DNA from: Gryganskiella cystojenkinii
Taxonomy: Eukaryota; Mortierellomycota; Mortierellomycetes; Mortierellales; Mortierellaceae
DNA length: 57,189 nt
Assembly (NCBI GenBank): GCA_015852425.1
Contig: JAAAIG010000149.1
Coordinates: 1-57,189, forward strand
Direction of reading: 5' to 3'
Under the pieces are notes generated by a model. That model had not been told where the DNA came from and did not search any database. It saw nothing but the letters and a program-made list of their open reading frames with translations. Within the stretch, counting starts at the first letter, position 1, and each line of letters begins with the position of its first letter. The position numbers and the translations under genes were made by a program. Shown here piece after piece: positions 703 through 57,189 of this stretch.

Positions 703-3622
703 ATGTCGTCTCCGAATCCAAAGGACAAACGAGCATTTCATTCCGCTGTCCATGCCATCAGGGCCCAGGCAACCAGGGATCTCCCCGTGATCTCAGCATC
801 TCATCACCAAGCCCTCCAGCTCCTCCTTTCAGTCGAGGCCAATGATGCTCAGCTCACAACAGAACAGCGACAGAATGCAAGGAACCTTCAAAAGCATTAC
901 TACCGACAACATCGACATGCCTGTATGAATCAAACCGCAGCATCCCGTCACGAACGACGTCAACAACATCTGGATACTGAAGGCAGCGGAATGCCATCAG
1001 GAACAATAAACAATGGCCATGCCAACAACAACAACAACAACAATATTAGCGCCACGTCTATCCAGGACCGTGTACGGCAACGGGTCGAGAAAACCTTGGA
1101 ACGCAAAAAAACCACAAAACGGTTTGTCTCGATCCTGGAACCTCAAAGTGGACGTGCCATGACCGATTTCACGATGCAGATGACTGATCTTCAAGCACTG
1201 GTAGGCACTCAAAGGCTTCTGCTAGAAACTATTCCCCTGTTTATTTTTATTTGAGAGTCTTTGACGCGCTATTAATTTGAGCCAAACATTCTATCTTTGT
1301 ATTATTACCAGAAATGCCCACCAGAGAGAGATATTCGGGTTGTACCAGTGCCGATAAAGACTCTCAAAGACCGCGCAAAGAAATATGCAGAGGACAAGGA
1401 GGCAGAGGCGAAATCAGCTCAAGAAGCAGTCGCGCAGGTCATAGCCAAGAAACGAGCCATCGAAAAGGAAGCAATGGCGAAAATCAAAGCCGAAATCCAG
1501 GCTGAAGTACGAGCACAAGTTCGGGCCGAGGTTCAAGAGGAGCTAAGGGCCGAATTGGAAGTCAAGATGAGAACCGAGATTCAAGAAAAGATCGTGGCGG
1601 AGGATGCTACCCGGTATGCCCGGAGGAAGAAGGAGGTAGTAGAAGAACTGGAAGTGGAAGAACAGACAGAGGCAATGACGAGAGAAACTCCTACAAACTA
1701 TGCAGAAAGACTTGCAAAAGCCAAAACTGCCTTGGATTCGACGGATGCGATACCGCCGACGACGAACGATAATTCAAAGGTGCGAGGAGCTACAGGACTT
1801 TTGCCTCGAGAGTACACCATCACTGCTGCACGGGGTTATCATGCATCACCGATAGCCACCCGTGGTCAGGGACAAGGAACTCAGCCAGCATCACCCAAAC
1901 CGAAATATGGCAACTATGCAAACGACGATGAGGACGAAGAGGACGAAGATCGAAACGATCCAGTTGTCCCCTCTGTTCACAAGTCAGCTGCAAATAGTCT
2001 CGACCGTCGTAACACAAAGAGGGTAGGCGACGTTGACCGAGATGTTGATTCGGAAATGAAGGCGCAAATCGAAGGTTACTAACAATGTTCGCCTTCGACT
2101 ATTCAATCATAGTTCAAGAGCGATGGTCCGGACGCCTCAACCGGTCCACCTTCGTTCATTACTGCCAAGGAGCAGATGGTAAGGTTTACTTTTCTAGTTA
2201 CTCGTGGCGATATAACCTTGTAGAACATGATTACGACCGCAAGTTTGTAACCTCGAATATTCCTTTAGGTTATTGACGAGCAACATCAGGAAGCAAAGTC
2301 GTATCAAAACAATATGAGTCACTACCTCAATCGAGGCGGGTTCAATGCACCATCAACCAATGGTCAGAGAAACCATGGGAACGGCACCAACGCCCAGACT
2401 CTCATTAATCCGTATAGACCCGCCGCGCATGTTCAATCTTCAGATCAGACACAACAGGCTGCCCCCGCTGCAGGAATGCTCAGACCAAAGATTGTTGCCA
2501 CAAAAAGACCCAAATTCAAATCCCCTATCAATCGCGCCAACAGCGCTGAGAATTCCGAGGACAAGTCTGGACAGGCTCAGTCAAAGAGTTCGAACGGCAT
2601 TGATGAGCCTGTTGATGATAGACTAAGGAATATCGAGCCCAAGATGATCGAAACCATCAAGAATGAGGTAAAACTGCGCTTCCGTGAATGTTTCCCGATT
2701 GGCACATTGCCAGGTGAGCACTCGACCTTTTAACCTTGACCTCGTTTCATCCCCTGCTTAGATCATGGAGTCCTATCCAGTGGTGACATGGGACGACATT
2801 TCGGGCTTGAAACACGCAAAGGGCACAATCCGAGAGGCGGTTATCCTTCCCATCATGCGACCCGATATATTTACAGGATTGCGACGACCTCCCAAGGGTT
2901 TGCTTCTTTTTGGACCACCAGGAACGGGCAAGACGTTAATCGGCAAATGTATTGCCAGTCAAGCCAAGGCAACATTCTTCAGCATCAGTTCCTCGTCATT
3001 GACCTCGAAATGGGTCGGTGATGGTGAAAAGATGGTCCGAGCCCTGTTCGCAGTCGCGCGGTGTCACCAACCAGCCGTGATCTTTATGGACGAGATCGAT
3101 TCACTTTTGACTCAAAGAACGGACGGTGAAGTCGAGGCCTCGAGAAGGATCAAGACCGAGTTCCTGGTCCAGTTTGATGGTGTAGGCGTTGGCGGGGATG
3201 AGGATAGAATTCTGATTGTTGGTGCAACAAATCGACCCCAGGAGATTGACGAAGCCGCCCGCAGACGGTTCCAGAAACGACTCTATATCCCGCTTCCAGA
3301 GTCTGAAGGTCGACACGGCATGATCACCAACCTGCTCAAGGGTCAGGATCATGATTTGACAGAGGAACAGATCCAAGATATTTGTGAGCGAACAAAGGGT
3401 TATTCGGGATCGGATATGAATGGACTCTGTCGAGAGGCTGCGTTGGGTCCTGTTCGGTCGATCCAAGGCGATATCCTGGAGATTGGGTTGGATGCGTTAC
3501 GACCGATCCAGCACAAGGATTTCATGGATGCATTGTCTCAAGTCCGAGCGAGTGTCAGTGATCGAGATCTGGAGATGTACCGCACCTGGGATGCCGAGTA
3601 TGGTTCTATGGACAAGCGGTGA
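703..3622 (+). CDS. FIGNL1: Fidgetin-like AAA ATPase (FIGNL1 family)
   Basis: Five exons: 703-1200, 1312-2022, 2113-2178, 2269-2667 and 2762-3622, giving 844 aa. The start sits in a good context (CCACCATGT). All four introns are phase 0 GT-AG; the second carries TACTAAC near 2078. The C-terminal 280 residues are a meiotic-clade AAA module: Walker A GPPGTGKT (about 609-616), Walker B VIFMDEID (about 664-671), sensor [10 protein letters not shown] and a Vps4-type C-terminal helix. The linker [12 protein letters not shown] and the IKNEIMESYPV entry into the AAA domain match FIGNL1 and fix the splice choices at 2668 and 2761. The middle (about 180-300) is a strongly charged K/E/A coiled coil, unlike animal FIGNL1, and there is an Asn run from an AAC repeat near 1024. 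Family members are hexameric ATPases: FIGNL1 disassembles RAD51 filaments, while relatives sever microtubules. Which role applies here is inference. Confidence 0.92.
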
Positions 3623-3671
3623 TTCACCTACAATGCTGCTACACTTTGATGTTATCCGTTTTCTGGTATGA

Positions 3672-3677
3672 AATAAA
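3672..3677 (+). terminator. Probable polyadenylation signal of the FIGNL1-like gene
   Basis: AATAAA lies 50 nt after the stop codon, followed by a T-rich stretch. It is the only canonical hexamer in the 104-nt gap before the convergent thioesterase gene. Confidence 0.5.
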
Positions 3678-3726
3678 CAACGATATTTATTAGTTGTTTT
3701 CATGCCATGGGCTCTGGAGTCATATC

Positions 3727-5400
3727 TTAGAGCTTGGGCTCAGAAGGGGTCCTGAAGCGAACAACGCCTTCCTGAGCGACAGAGACGGCCAGGGTACCAT
3801 CCTCTTTGTATATCCTTCCAAAAGTCAATCCACGATCACATCCTGAACGGGGACTAATATTTGATATAATGAAGTTGTGACAAGAATTTTGTGTAAGTGT
3901 CAAACTTCTCACTGTCAGGCAAAATTGAAGACAAAGCCTTGATGTGAAACTTCAGCTTACGTTTCGCAGACATAGAGCATCCATTCGTCAGCACGGAAGG
4001 GACAGTGGAACCACATGGAATGGTCCAAGGAGGCCATCATAGCGATCCTTGTGCTACGGGAGAACCAAGTCGCTCCATGAGCCAGAGGGACAGTTCCGAG
4101 AAGGTTGTGATCCGACCCATAAGCGACCACACACTGGTGCAAGGCCAAAGCATCGCCCAATTGACCCTTTGCCCTGATCCAAAACGTTTGCGTGGTACGC
4201 TTAGGTGGTTCAGTGATGTCCCTGAGACTGTGTTTAGTCGTATCCTTGAACTCGAGTGCCACAGGCTAAAATCGGAGGATCAAGGTTGTAAGAGGTTAGA
4301 CCTCCATGACAATAAGATAATCAGGAATGAGTAGGCAATACTCTAAAAACAAAAACAATCGTAGTCGAGTCATAGACTTTACCTCCTCCAGACGCAACTT
4401 CAAATACTTTGTATAGTTCTCAGGAACCTTGGGGTTATCGATCATGGTCTGGATCAACTCCTCTTGACTGGGAAGCGTGCTGTGATGTGGGACATCTGGC
4501 ATAGGGTATTGATGACTTGGGGAAGTGGGTGCAGGGACCTGGAAACTGGCTGTACAGACAAAGATACTCTTCCCTCTTTGTTTGGCTGTCACAGTTCGGG
4601 TGCAGTACGATTTGCCTGTAACAACACGAAGCAAAAATGAAGAGTATAAGCACCAATTCTTGTGTTATTTACGTCCTCGAGTCATGGTCAGATGCTCACC
4701 ATCTCGGACACGCTCGACTTGGTACAGGATAGGAACTGAGTGATCGCCTGGTAACAAAAAATAGGAAGAAAGAGACTAAAAAAAAAAAAAAAAAAGACAT
4801 TTTGTTTCTGTTAGCTACTACTCTGGCGTAAAGTGTCGCTAAAAAAATCTTCGTCATCATTTCTCGATGTTCTTTAGAGCGTTTGATGCGCAGGCACTTG
4901 CATGAACCGAGTATTTCGTATCGACTGTGTTGGTAGCAGCGACCAAGGCCTGGCCGACGACATTGCCTCCTATTCACGGTAGAAGGGAGAAACAAGCTGT
5001 TAGATTCTCTTTTGACAAAATAAACATAAAAATTGTGATTGTGAGACATCAATTAGAAAGAAGGTAAAATTTATGCCTCCCATACCAAAGACCCCGCGGG
5101 CACCCCTCGGGAGCCAGAGTTTCTTGGATCGGTACAAGTCAATGTCGATCTCTTCCAGATCCAACATAGACTCAATAATAGTGTTGTCTGGTTTTGTTTG
5201 CAAGAAAATGTATCAAATGATCAAAAATCGGACCGGTTAGTTTTCAGTTTTCTCCACGGGTGTGGAGCGCGTACAAGCGGAGTTCTTTGCATGAACCTCA
5301 AACTGTCAATTCGAAAGACAATGCTGAATGCCGAAGCAAGGTAATGCACAAATGTCTTACTGGTAGCGCCATCAGGCGAAGGTGGGATAGTCGTTGACAT
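3727..5400 (-). CDS. TES1: Acyl-CoA thioesterase II (TesB/ACOT8 type), probably peroxisomal
   Basis: Seven exons on the minus strand: 5400-5361, 5187-5086, 4969-4902, 4775-4700, 4615-4383, 4265-3961 and 3853-3727, giving 316 aa, a usual TesB length. The product has the tandem hot-dog fold signatures: GGNVVGQALVAAT near the N-terminus, PILYQVERVRDG, then MASLDHSMWFH and VAQEGVVRF in the C-terminal half, which carry the catalytic Asp and Gln of the family. It hydrolyses acyl-CoA to free fatty acid and CoA. The C-terminus is PKL, close to but not a canonical PTS1 (SKL-like), so peroxisomal import is likely but not certain. Intron 3 (4901-4776) begins GCAAGT and ends AG, a GC-AG intron: only this splice joins YSVH to SLSSYFLLPGD in frame as the family demands. 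The gene converges on the FIGNL1-like gene. Confidence 0.92.
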
Positions 5401-54791: not shown

Positions 54792-56040
54792 CTAATGCTG
54801 TTTGGGAGCGACGATGGTGGTTCTTTGCCTCGTCGAAGTTGTTGTCGTCGTCGTCGTGGAAGTGGTAGTGGTACCATTGCTTCCGGTGTGCTTCTCTGCG
54901 GTCGAGATTGTCTCAGTGGTTGTTGATGAGGTCGAAGAAGCCATCTTGGCGATCTTCTCAGATCGTTTGACATATGCCTCGAGCCCGATGCCTGAAAAAA
55001 CGACTGCCACCATGATCCACTGTTGAGGGTTTAACTTGTGCCCGTATGCAACAACAGACAACAGGATCGTGAACAATTTGCGAGTGACCGTGACTGTAAC
55101 AAGGGACAAGGAACCGTACTGTTCCAGGGTATAAAAAATGAAGCATTGACCAACAGCACCACAGATCGAAAACAGGATAATATCCTGCAAGATCGCTGGG
55201 TGCGTCTTGACAAACTGCAAAGCCATCGACAATTCTGACGTCGGTCCGTGAAGAAGTCCGAAAAAGAGCAACCAGCCAGTCATGAACGCCGACATGAACA
55301 GGTTCATGAAACACATCATCTGTTGGCCCGAGACCTTGAACCGATGGAAGATTTGATCCTGCGTCGAGTTGGTGACTCCGTCCAATGTCAAGTTGATCGC
55401 AACCAGGAACAATCCGTAGAGGGAGCTGTTGACGGCGCCCTTTTTGCTAGCCTTGTGTTCATCCAGTGGAGCGAGGAGCATGAAACCGGAAACACCAAGG
55501 GTGATCAAGATGACACAAACGTATTTGTACAAAGGAAATTTCCTCCTGTACAAGACAATGTTCATCAACATGACTGGGATCAACTTGCAGGATTTGGTGA
55601 GGATCATGGTCGGGTAATCGATATGCTTCAGAGCCGCATACGAGAACGGAGAGGCGACGACGGCGATTAGGGCGACCTGGACATATTTGGCGATCAACGC
55701 AGGAGTCGGGGCCGGGTTTAGCAGCGATTTCCGGTTGAGGAGCAAATAGAGATAGGCGATCGCAGAGGCAAAGATGGCCTGGATAAGGTTCAGAAAGATG
55801 AAATGTTTGAATTTGATGGCGTCCTGTCCGTAGGGAGTTGTCGAGACCTTTTCTTGATAGTAGCCCCAGGTCAGGAAGCATGTGTAGATGCTAGAGTAGA
55901 GACATTTGTAACAAGAGCAGAGGGCAATTGTCAGCATTCCAAGGTCAGGAATGCAAAAAAATAAAAAAATAAAAAAATAAAAAAACGAAGACAACAGATT
56001 GAATGACCTACCCAGCGACGCAGCCAGCTAAGCGAAGCAT
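54792..56040 (-). CDS. HUT1: ER nucleotide(-sugar) transporter, SLC35B1/HUT1 type
   Basis: Two exons, 56040-56012 and 55890-54792, giving 375 aa. The 29-nt first exon encodes MLRLAGCVAG and joins in phase 2 to IYTCFLTWGYYQE, the HUT1 signature at the start of TM1. About ten TM helices follow, with family blocks SPFSYAALKHIDYPTMILTK, SCKLIPVMLMN, ISLYGLFLV-like NLTLDGVTNSTQD and ILFSICGAVGQCFIFYTL, then TVTVTRKLFTILLSVVAYGH. Members carry UDP-galactose or UDP-glucose, or exchange ATP/ADP, across the ER membrane to feed glycosylation and protein folding. The C-terminal cytosolic tail is a Thr/Ser run followed by PKQH, with Lys at -3 rather than a textbook KKxx signal. The family is well supported; the exact substrate is not. 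Confidence 0.9.
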
Positions 56041-56376
56041 CGTGAAGGTTGTGGGTGCTGTGAGAGTGGAGAAGATGAGAGGGTATAAAGGAAGAGAAGA
56101 GATGGATGAAAAAAGGAATGTAGACAGGGTTCTGACGAAACAAAAAGGTTTCTTCTCGAACGCTGTGCTATGCGCTGGCACCAGCTGGCTGGCTCAGGAT
56201 TGGCTGCCAAAATTGCAATTGACACTACATATGCTACAGAACAGGTCACCTATTCCCAAAAAAAATTGAAGAAGTTGGTAAACAAAGTAATGACGCCAAG
56301 GATGGCTTAGCCTTTGATATTACAAACTCACCTAGAGGCGAGCCACACCGTAAAAAATGGCTTGAAATCATTGCTT
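56041..56376. other. Spacer between HUT1-like gene and the Fanzor 3' end
   Basis: Both neighbours are on the minus strand, so this is the promoter of the transporter gene and the 3' flank of the Fanzor gene. A transposon right end or a guide-RNA scaffold may lie here. I see no clear terminal repeat, and its partner would be outside the window. Confidence 0.4.
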
Positions 56377-56381
56377 TCAAG
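56361..56381 (-). other. Perfect hairpin overlapping the Fanzor stop codon
   Basis: On the minus strand CTTGAAA, a 7-nt loop (GCAATGA), then TTTCAAG. The stem covers the TGA stop (56379-56377) and is followed within a few bases by six T (56358-56353). It may be part of an omega-RNA scaffold, an element end or a 3' processing signal. The structure is seen; the role is inferred. Confidence 0.5.
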
Positions 56382-57189
56382 CGTCATTGTTGTTGTTGTT
56401 GTTGTTGTCCTTTGCCTTCTGGAAATCCAGAGGAGGGGGCCACTCCCTCTCACGAAGAAAGTGCAGGACGGCATTTGACATGTTGGTCCCAGCGTTGTGA
56501 TCCCGGTCGCGGCTCCAATTGCAAACCTCACAGATCACTGTTCGACCTTCTGCTTTCATTCGGTAGTGACACGAGCAGCAAAAGACCGAGGTCCTAAACT
56601 CAGGGATCTTGACCAGTTCAATTGCCGCAGGCTTCTCCTTGCTCCTGGCCAGATCCTTGATGAGATCTCTAGTCTAGTTATCCAAGCAAAGACAAATATT
56701 AGAAGACACTCAATCGTTGTTGACTTCACTCACCAAAAGTCTGTTATACTTGCCTGTCGAATCAAGCTTTGATTGAATTTGCTTCCTCCTCTGTTTTGGC
56801 CACCCCACTTTCGATAATCGCCGTCGCCGATACCGATAATGAGAGGTGACCTTCGGAAAGACTGGCGCTCCTCCGCCGACAGACGGCTTAGGTTCAGAAA
56901 ACCCCGTTTGAAGAGGGACTTGGCCATTTTGTGCAGACGTTTTGAGACAGTCGTTAAAAAAGCGTCGCGCTTAGCTCCCGAGTATCTATCCGCTTCCTCC
57001 ATGAGTTCGAGATATGGTGCCAAGTCATAGTTGCTGGTCCTCGGCAACTTCGCGACAAACCTCTTCGCGGCCTCTTTATCATCCTTAACAGAACGGATAA
57101 TATCCTGGAGATCGTTCTCCGTGGGCTGCCGATCAGGAATGGCGTTTCTCATCTTGAGAATTGCAGAGGTGGATTTGTCGAGGTCATGG
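56377..57189 (-). CDS. Fanzor (eukaryotic TnpB homologue), C-terminal half, truncated by window edge
   Basis: Two visible exons, 57189-56754 and 56673-56377; the gene enters from beyond the right edge, so the start and first half are not seen. The visible part (243 aa) has a helical region, then LIIGIGDGDYRKW (RuvC-II region of Fanzors) and KIPEFRTSVFC leading to a zinc ribbon with two CxxC pairs (CCSC and CEVC). RDRDHNAGTNM follows, the RuvC-III Asp-x-Asn-Ala-x-x-Asn block of TnpB/Cas12-type nucleases. The C-terminus ends in an Asn run from a GTT microsatellite (56387-56408). The intron 56753-56674 starts GCAAGT and ends TAG: only this GC-AG splice keeps SLIRQ/TRDLIKD in frame. Fanzors are RNA-guided DNA endonucleases (OMEGA systems) carried by transposons. 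All visible catalytic-end residues are intact, so the gene could be active. Confidence 0.85.

Follow-up and report, generated by a model that had tools for sequence, protein, structure and literature searches.

If the reading below holds, the DNA studied here bears on the question of how eukaryotic cells produce guide RNAs that share sequence with a coding mRNA. The stretch (the window) is all 57,189 bp of contig JAAAIG010000149.1 of the fungus Gryganskiella cystojenkinii (Mortierellaceae; assembly GCA_015852425.1), one of 1,050 contigs in a 35-Mb genome, and a Fanzor gene runs off its right edge. We consider it probable that the window contains one copy, represented by its 3′ end, of a multicopy, likely mobile Fanzor gene, likely of the Fanzor1 type and likely fused to an N-terminal nuclease resembling FEN1, EXO1, and XPG. 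As part of the same reading, an omega-RNA is predicted that would begin at a hairpin spanning the stop codon and end with the last base of the element, and it is likely spliced.

Results

The Fanzor gene and its catalytic residues

The minus strand encodes 243 C-terminal Fanzor residues, from 57188 to 56377, without a stop and in a frame still open at the contig end (Table 1). A preliminary description of the window had proposed an intron-bearing fungal Fanzor with an intact C terminus, and our analysis agrees. The window protein matches Pfam PF07282, the TNB zinc-ribbon domain, at 35.8 bits, above the cut-off of 26.3 (E 8.9e-9; the query used a provisional exon junction, with a few residues different), and the exon itself scores 38.6 bits in the genome search. 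The motifs FRTS, CxxC/CxxC, and RDRDHNAGTNM are all present as first described, and the published Fanzor pattern of [TS][TS]xx, a C4 zinc finger, X(5,50), and RD (PMC3627910) appears as TSVFCCSC...CEVC-NWSRD-RD. According to PMC10711439, the fingerprints of the group are a catalytic Glu six residues upstream of the zinc finger and a DPG motif. This alternative Glu is present in the window as PEFRTSVFC. Because the catalytic Glu is the E of PEFRTS, the block GIGDGDY, which had been matched to RuvC-II, does mark the old RuvC-II region but is not the catalytic element. The RuvC-I DPG is seen in copies C398 and C625 of this genome as well as in proteins P0005-P0009; at the window locus, RuvC-I and everything N-terminal of it lie off the assembly because the contig is exactly the window.

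In the three pairwise comparisons among the window, C398, and C625, 74-78% of synonymous sites differ versus 22-25% of nonsynonymous sites, a divergence that marks them as old copies under purifying selection. The large multi-exon protein suggests Fanzor1 rather than Fanzor2. A search of the Protein Data Bank (PDB) with the sequence of the Fanzor part returned one match, at chance level, and a structure model of this part (P0008), with a predicted local distance difference test (pLDDT) score of 43.2, was not used. The coding intron of the window has the donor GCAAGT and the acceptor TAG. As a side observation, its GC donor recurs at the same intron in C625, C495, C748, and C560, whereas C398 has GT.

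A dispersed family with a common right terminus

When the 3′ region was used as a query, similar sequence turned up at other contig ends. Thirteen loci (C164, C437, C747, C344, C10, C185, C927, C625, C398, C748, C483, C812, and C495) end in AGGTG...CTGTA, or CTGGTA in C495, after which their flanks differ; the decayed copies C441 and C560 are excluded from these counts. Dispersed copies with a common end are the mark by which we recognize a mobile element, and because 13 loci have this terminus in common but not their flanks, the window gene is identified as one copy of a dispersed family. The Fanzor gene is thus multicopy and likely mobile, and we reject the earlier proposal of a recently domesticated gene. 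Genome-wide, there are 19 matches to PF07282 and 20 to the window protein, including its own two exons; several contain stops. No viral contig was matched. Separately, in C635 (L067) Fanzor coding sequence runs from before RuvC-I straight into the right-terminus motif, perhaps as an internally deleted copy.

A covarying hairpin over the stop codon

The stop codon of the window copy (56377-56379) lies within the 5′ arm of a hairpin, SL1, which is composed of the last codons and the first bases of the 3′ untranslated region (UTR). In 10 copies, which comprise seven distinct sequences, every one of the 56 pair cells holds a standard pair. Three pairs have changed on both sides (G-C/A-U, A-U/G-C, and A-U/G-C/C-G), and TGA, TAA, and TAG stops are each accompanied by a compensating 3′ arm. 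None of 500 shuffles reached the observed percentage paired, number of cells changed on both sides, or covariation score, and shifting the partner by one to three columns lowers the pairing to 16-63%. One pair is U-G in three of the seven rows, and another is G-U in one of seven. SL1 is absent at C344 and C10, which are contig ends, and partial at C927. A pattern for the terminus gave 16 matches genome-wide and two when read backwards; seven of the 16 (C128, C179, C497, C635, C761, C929, and C987) have no SL1 in the upstream stretch read and are uncounted. A search against Rfam returned a single match, under threshold (15.5 versus 60 bits).

Terminal complementarity and an intron-like insert

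The bases TACGG, just after the linker that follows SL1, are complementary to the closing five bases of the element, CTGTA, and together they would form the base of a second stem. The sixth stem 2 pair is T-A in C398, C748, C483, C812, and C625 and A-T in C185 and C927; the window's subfamily (C164, C437, and C747) has a T-T mismatch at this position, and C495 has three basal pairs only. Downstream of TACGG, either at once or after a few bases, comes an insert of 65-106 nt that resembles an intron and extends up to the terminal 13-15 nt. Its first six bases are GTACGT (C398, C748, C483, and C812), GTGAGT (C164, C437, C747, C185, and C927), GTAGGC (C625), or GTAAAG (C495), and its last three are CAG or TAG, such that all 11 copies have GT and YAG at the chosen ends. 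The donor GTRNGT, the branch motif YTRAY, and YAG occur together in eight of the 11; for each copy, no more than 0.3% of 2,000 dinucleotide shuffles contain this combination. Nine coding introns of this gene family, with lengths of 79-101 nt, are similar to the inserts in length and motifs.

With the insert excised, the terminal piece folds as a compact hairpin, and the predicted scaffold measures 53-72 nt from six bases before SL1 (nine copies). The fraction of shuffled pieces as stable as this hairpin is at most 0.008 in C398, C748, C483, C812, C625, and C437 and 0.04-0.16 in C164, C747, C185, C927, and C495. These sequence features suggest that the insert is probably spliced out by the spliceosome. 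As a separate observation, the inserts of C625, C398, C748, C483, and C812 (L029, L030, L031, L063, and L065) each contain the motif GTCACGTG, which also occurs upstream of the C335 start (L074, about 730) and may be a regulator site.

Fusion to a FEN1-like nuclease in relatives, and probably in the window copy

In two divergent protein models from Entomortierella parvispora, a FEN1/EXO1-fold domain is joined to a whole Fanzor, and models from E. lignicola, L. selenospora, and G. cystojenkinii itself carry a FEN1-like part in frame with the N-terminal part of the Fanzor. Two contigs of the present genome resemble the halves of one intact fused gene. In C335, an in-frame splice from the FEN1-like exon to the following open stretch is possible (joining ..ALTRR to CRQQHQ..); in the decayed C560, the same junction motif is read through with no intron. 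The first part of protein P0026 (BGZ83_008232) is also read in C560. The predicted structure of the N-terminal part in relatives has a FEN1-type fold. The sequence of P0005 (EMPS_10318) contains IDGS, YDG, QFD, TDSD, and NDYD, which may contribute to an acidic two-metal site. The window copy is likely fused in the same way, an extrapolation from these relatives because its own N-terminal part is off the contig. A further model, P0018 of Mortierella claussenii, has a FEN1-like start directly joined to a Fanzor zinc-finger end and looks like an internal deletion.

Discussion

Comparison with known systems

The predicted arrangement is similar to that of SpuFz1, the Fanzor1 of the SPu-1 element of Spizellomyces punctatus, whose guide RNA is likewise encoded 3′ of the open reading frame (ORF). 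In the SpuFz1 scaffold, a 6-nt linker (A29-C34) joins two stems; here the linker has 7 nt. Stem 2 of SpuFz1, which spans about U35 to A75 and is contacted at U35, G37, A72, and A75, closes the 75-nt scaffold, and a 15-nt guide follows from U76 (PMC10432273); in the present family, stem 2 ends at the element end, with the predicted guide next. Both have an acidic D-E-D site, formed in SpuFz1 by D383, E541, and D606 (PMC11423790). Unlike the present family, SpuFz1 is a single 638-aa ORF without an N-terminal nuclease, its scaffold and guide are reported to form one 88-90-nt RNA, and the overlap of SL1 with the stop codon is a feature of the present family only. The available text of PMC10432273, PMC11423790, and PMC3627910 does not contain the word "intron" or "introns."

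PpFz1 of Parasitella parasitica also belongs to Fanzor1, comes from an early-diverging fungus, and carries an extra domain, although this extra part is a cyclophilin-binding RuvC insertion (PMC11423790) rather than an N-terminal FEN1-like nuclease. In GtFz1 of Guillardia theta, the omega-RNA overlaps the C-terminal coding sequence (17 aa), as we predict here, but the third catalytic residue is Asn instead of Asp. Some IStrons carry TnpB. IStrons similarly combine an intron with a mobile element, but theirs is a self-splicing group I intron in bacteria (PMC4227781), whereas here a spliceosomal intron is predicted inside the guide RNA. With the FEN1, EXO1, and XPG nucleases, the modeled N-terminal part is 12-18% identical; here it is joined to a Fanzor, and its activity is predicted. 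Our literature search, to which the loci of Jiang et al. 2023 (Sci Adv) are external, found no Fanzor paper naming Mortierella or XPG, no paper on Mortierella together with TnpB and transposable elements, and, among the titles listed, none on an intron in an omega-RNA; two papers that pair Fanzor with flap endonucleases are, by title, unrelated. Nor did it find a description of a guide RNA laid over the stop codon and interrupted by an intron. If the splicing is real, this would be, to our knowledge, the first Fanzor guide RNA to depend on pre-mRNA splicing.

Weighing the alternatives

Several observations weigh against the reading of a mobile, fused Fanzor with a spliced omega-RNA, and we consider them together with the explanations that they favor. 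Both the omega-RNA and its splicing are predictions. Two of the five SL1 measures fail against the shuffles, the number of pairs changed on both sides (reached in 152 of 500) and the number of further pair types (479 of 500), and the decayed copies C441 and C560, both left out of the SL1 set, have no recognizable SL1. For the element as a whole, a left end, a target-site duplication, and a target-adjacent motif were not established by pattern and DNA searches and upstream alignments. A consistent left end with the inverted repeat that, along with a TA duplication, would mark a Tc1/mariner-like or other terminal-inverted-repeat element did not emerge from those searches, from the alignment of four upstream regions, or from local alignment of six right-end sequences with those four (24 comparisons, best four of each region). 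The lowest shuffle fraction in these alignments was 0/300, for a C550 stretch against the C495 end; the TACAGTTATCACCTA stretch in C550 scored 0.07.

It is rather unlikely, in our judgment, that this is an ordinary Fanzor1 element whose omega-RNA goes unspliced. The insert would then be a stem 2 loop that is long and drifts fast, and its intron signals would be incidental or belong to an unrelated intron of the mRNA 3′-UTR. The donors and motif definitions were picked after the sequences had been seen, and the copies are related. C625 and C495 have weak donors (GTAGGC and GTAAAG), neither the window copy nor C495 has a match to YTRAY, and the acceptor AG is also within the conserved terminus. 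Because an alternative GT in the insert gives a longer, more stable product in all 11 copies, energy does not single out the donor. The basal pairing is independent of splicing, since the unspliced helix already has 5-6 bp in 10 of the 11 copies, and the unspliced folds are unremarkable (z −2.3 to +1.0). The distal part of SpuFz1 stem 2 makes no protein contact and is dispensable (PMC10432273), and together with this basal helix it makes an unspliced loop possible; omega-RNA length also differs among species (PMC11423790). Opposed to an unspliced loop is the coincidence of donor, branch, and acceptor signals in the eight copies noted above. Excision also extends the uninterrupted helix from 6 to 7-8 bp, although in only five of the 11 copies.

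We regard it as improbable that the FEN1/XPG-like part is a separate neighboring gene of the element that annotation alone has merged with the Fanzor. Annotated models can fuse neighbors, and the FEN1-like exon in a metagenome is an open frame of about 450 aa that ends near the same junction. In C560 and C335, the linker between the two parts is left unaligned by BLAST, and the join there depends on a short motif identified by eye; at the window, the fusion cannot be seen. The FEN1-like model has a pLDDT of 68.5, Foldseek TM-scores of 0.25-0.6, and a weak match to Pfam XPG_I (best E 0.021, six of 16 members); by sequence, the XPG-like part has no relative in the PDB, where matches were at chance level or absent. 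A merger by annotation would nevertheless have to account for two divergent E. parvispora models that span both parts, the in-frame joins in the other three species, the possible in-frame splice in C335, and the read-through in C560.

Least of all do we credit a hairpin and terminus whose sole role is to provide a transposase with inverted repeats in the DNA or to signal the mRNA 3′ end, with no guide RNA and a Fanzor that is a decaying passenger: both are also inverted repeats in the DNA, the guide RNA is a prediction, and several genome copies have stops, but the strong constraint on the protein and on SL1, the G-U states in SL1, which fit RNA rather than DNA pairing, and the match to the SpuFz1 layout make this very improbable.

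Proposed mechanism

For a fused Fanzor with a spliced omega-RNA, the transcript of the window copy would include the N-terminal nuclease. The mRNA would be translated, and its 3′ end could be trimmed to SL1, the linker, stem 2, and about 15 nt of host flank to provide the guide, with the spliceosome removing the insert to leave a compact scaffold. The resulting complex would cut DNA that matches the flank, which is the empty insertion site, and the FEN1-like part may process flaps or ends at the break. Retention of the element would be favored by such cutting of empty sites, as has been proposed for TnpB. We suggest tentatively, as quite possible, that these copies represent a new Mortierellaceae class of Fanzor: a polypeptide of about 1,700 aa that combines a FEN1-type flap nuclease with an RNA-guided RuvC nuclease, its guide matured from the mRNA 3′ end by the host spliceosome and the stop codon lying within the scaffold. 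If so, guide production would be coupled through splicing to the processing of mRNA in the nucleus, and one target would be worked on by two nucleases in succession, the first cutting and the second trimming the flaps. A second nuclease activity would then have been added to an RNA-guided nuclease in one natural protein, with a bearing on break resolution and editor design.

Other features and further Fanzors in the genome

Table 1 Features at the right end of the window (minus strand throughout)
Feature	Position	Strand	Remarks
Penultimate Fanzor coding exon, truncated at contig end, 145 codons	56754..57188	-	Open frame; identity 55% with C625, 53% with C398
GIGDGDY block, old RuvC-II region without catalytic Glu	56814..56834	-	PMC10711439
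Coding intron, 80 nt, GC-AG	56674..56753	-	Same position in C398, C625, C495, C748, C560
Last coding exon, 98 codons, including stop TGA	56377..56673	-	PF07282; codons 56673-56380, TGA 56379-56377
PEFRT, alternative catalytic Glu (codon 56599-56601)	56590..56604	-	Six residues ahead of zinc finger
C4 zinc finger, CCSC...CEVC	56521..56580	-	
RuvC-III, RDHNAG	56488..56505	-	
Hairpin SL1, GCTTGAAA-loop-TTTCAAGC, predicted start of omega-RNA core	56360..56382	-	56/56 cells paired; three pairs changed on both sides
Linker CATTTTT, 7 nt	56353..56359	-	
5′ side of predicted stem 2	56332..56352	-	TACGG 56348-56352 pairable with CTGTA 56235-56239
Predicted 3′-UTR intron within stem 2, 82 nt, GTGAGT...TAG	56250..56331	-	
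Right terminus of the element (GTGACCTGTTCTGTA) and 3′ strand of predicted stem 2	56235..56249	-	Related form at 13 loci, then divergence
Predicted guide segment, first 15 nt of flank	56220..56234	-	By analogy with SpuFz1
Downstream host gene, nucleotide-sugar transporter (UAA family)	54792..56040	-	PF08449, 153.5 bits for 54792-55889

The likely ATG of the host transporter gene, read by eye, lies 194 nt past the element end. At six places (L029, L030, L031, L054, L056, and the window, 56040-56234), a likely host start codon, also read by eye, follows the right end in matching orientation at a distance of 24 to about 720 nt; the right ends of C437 and C344 have the opposite orientation to the host gene. 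With right ends so placed, the terminal AG/GTG could double as a splice acceptor into host genes.

The genome also contains a second, different Fanzor family, represented in L040 (C2) at 2462-4399 by an open 646-aa frame, VNEYMTSKMCPVC, with DPG present and a PF07282 score of 42.2 bits; shorter pieces of this family are found in C37 (L038) and C340 (L043). A third type of Fanzor-like zinc-finger piece, VNEYYTSKKCPVC, occurs in C201 (L041).
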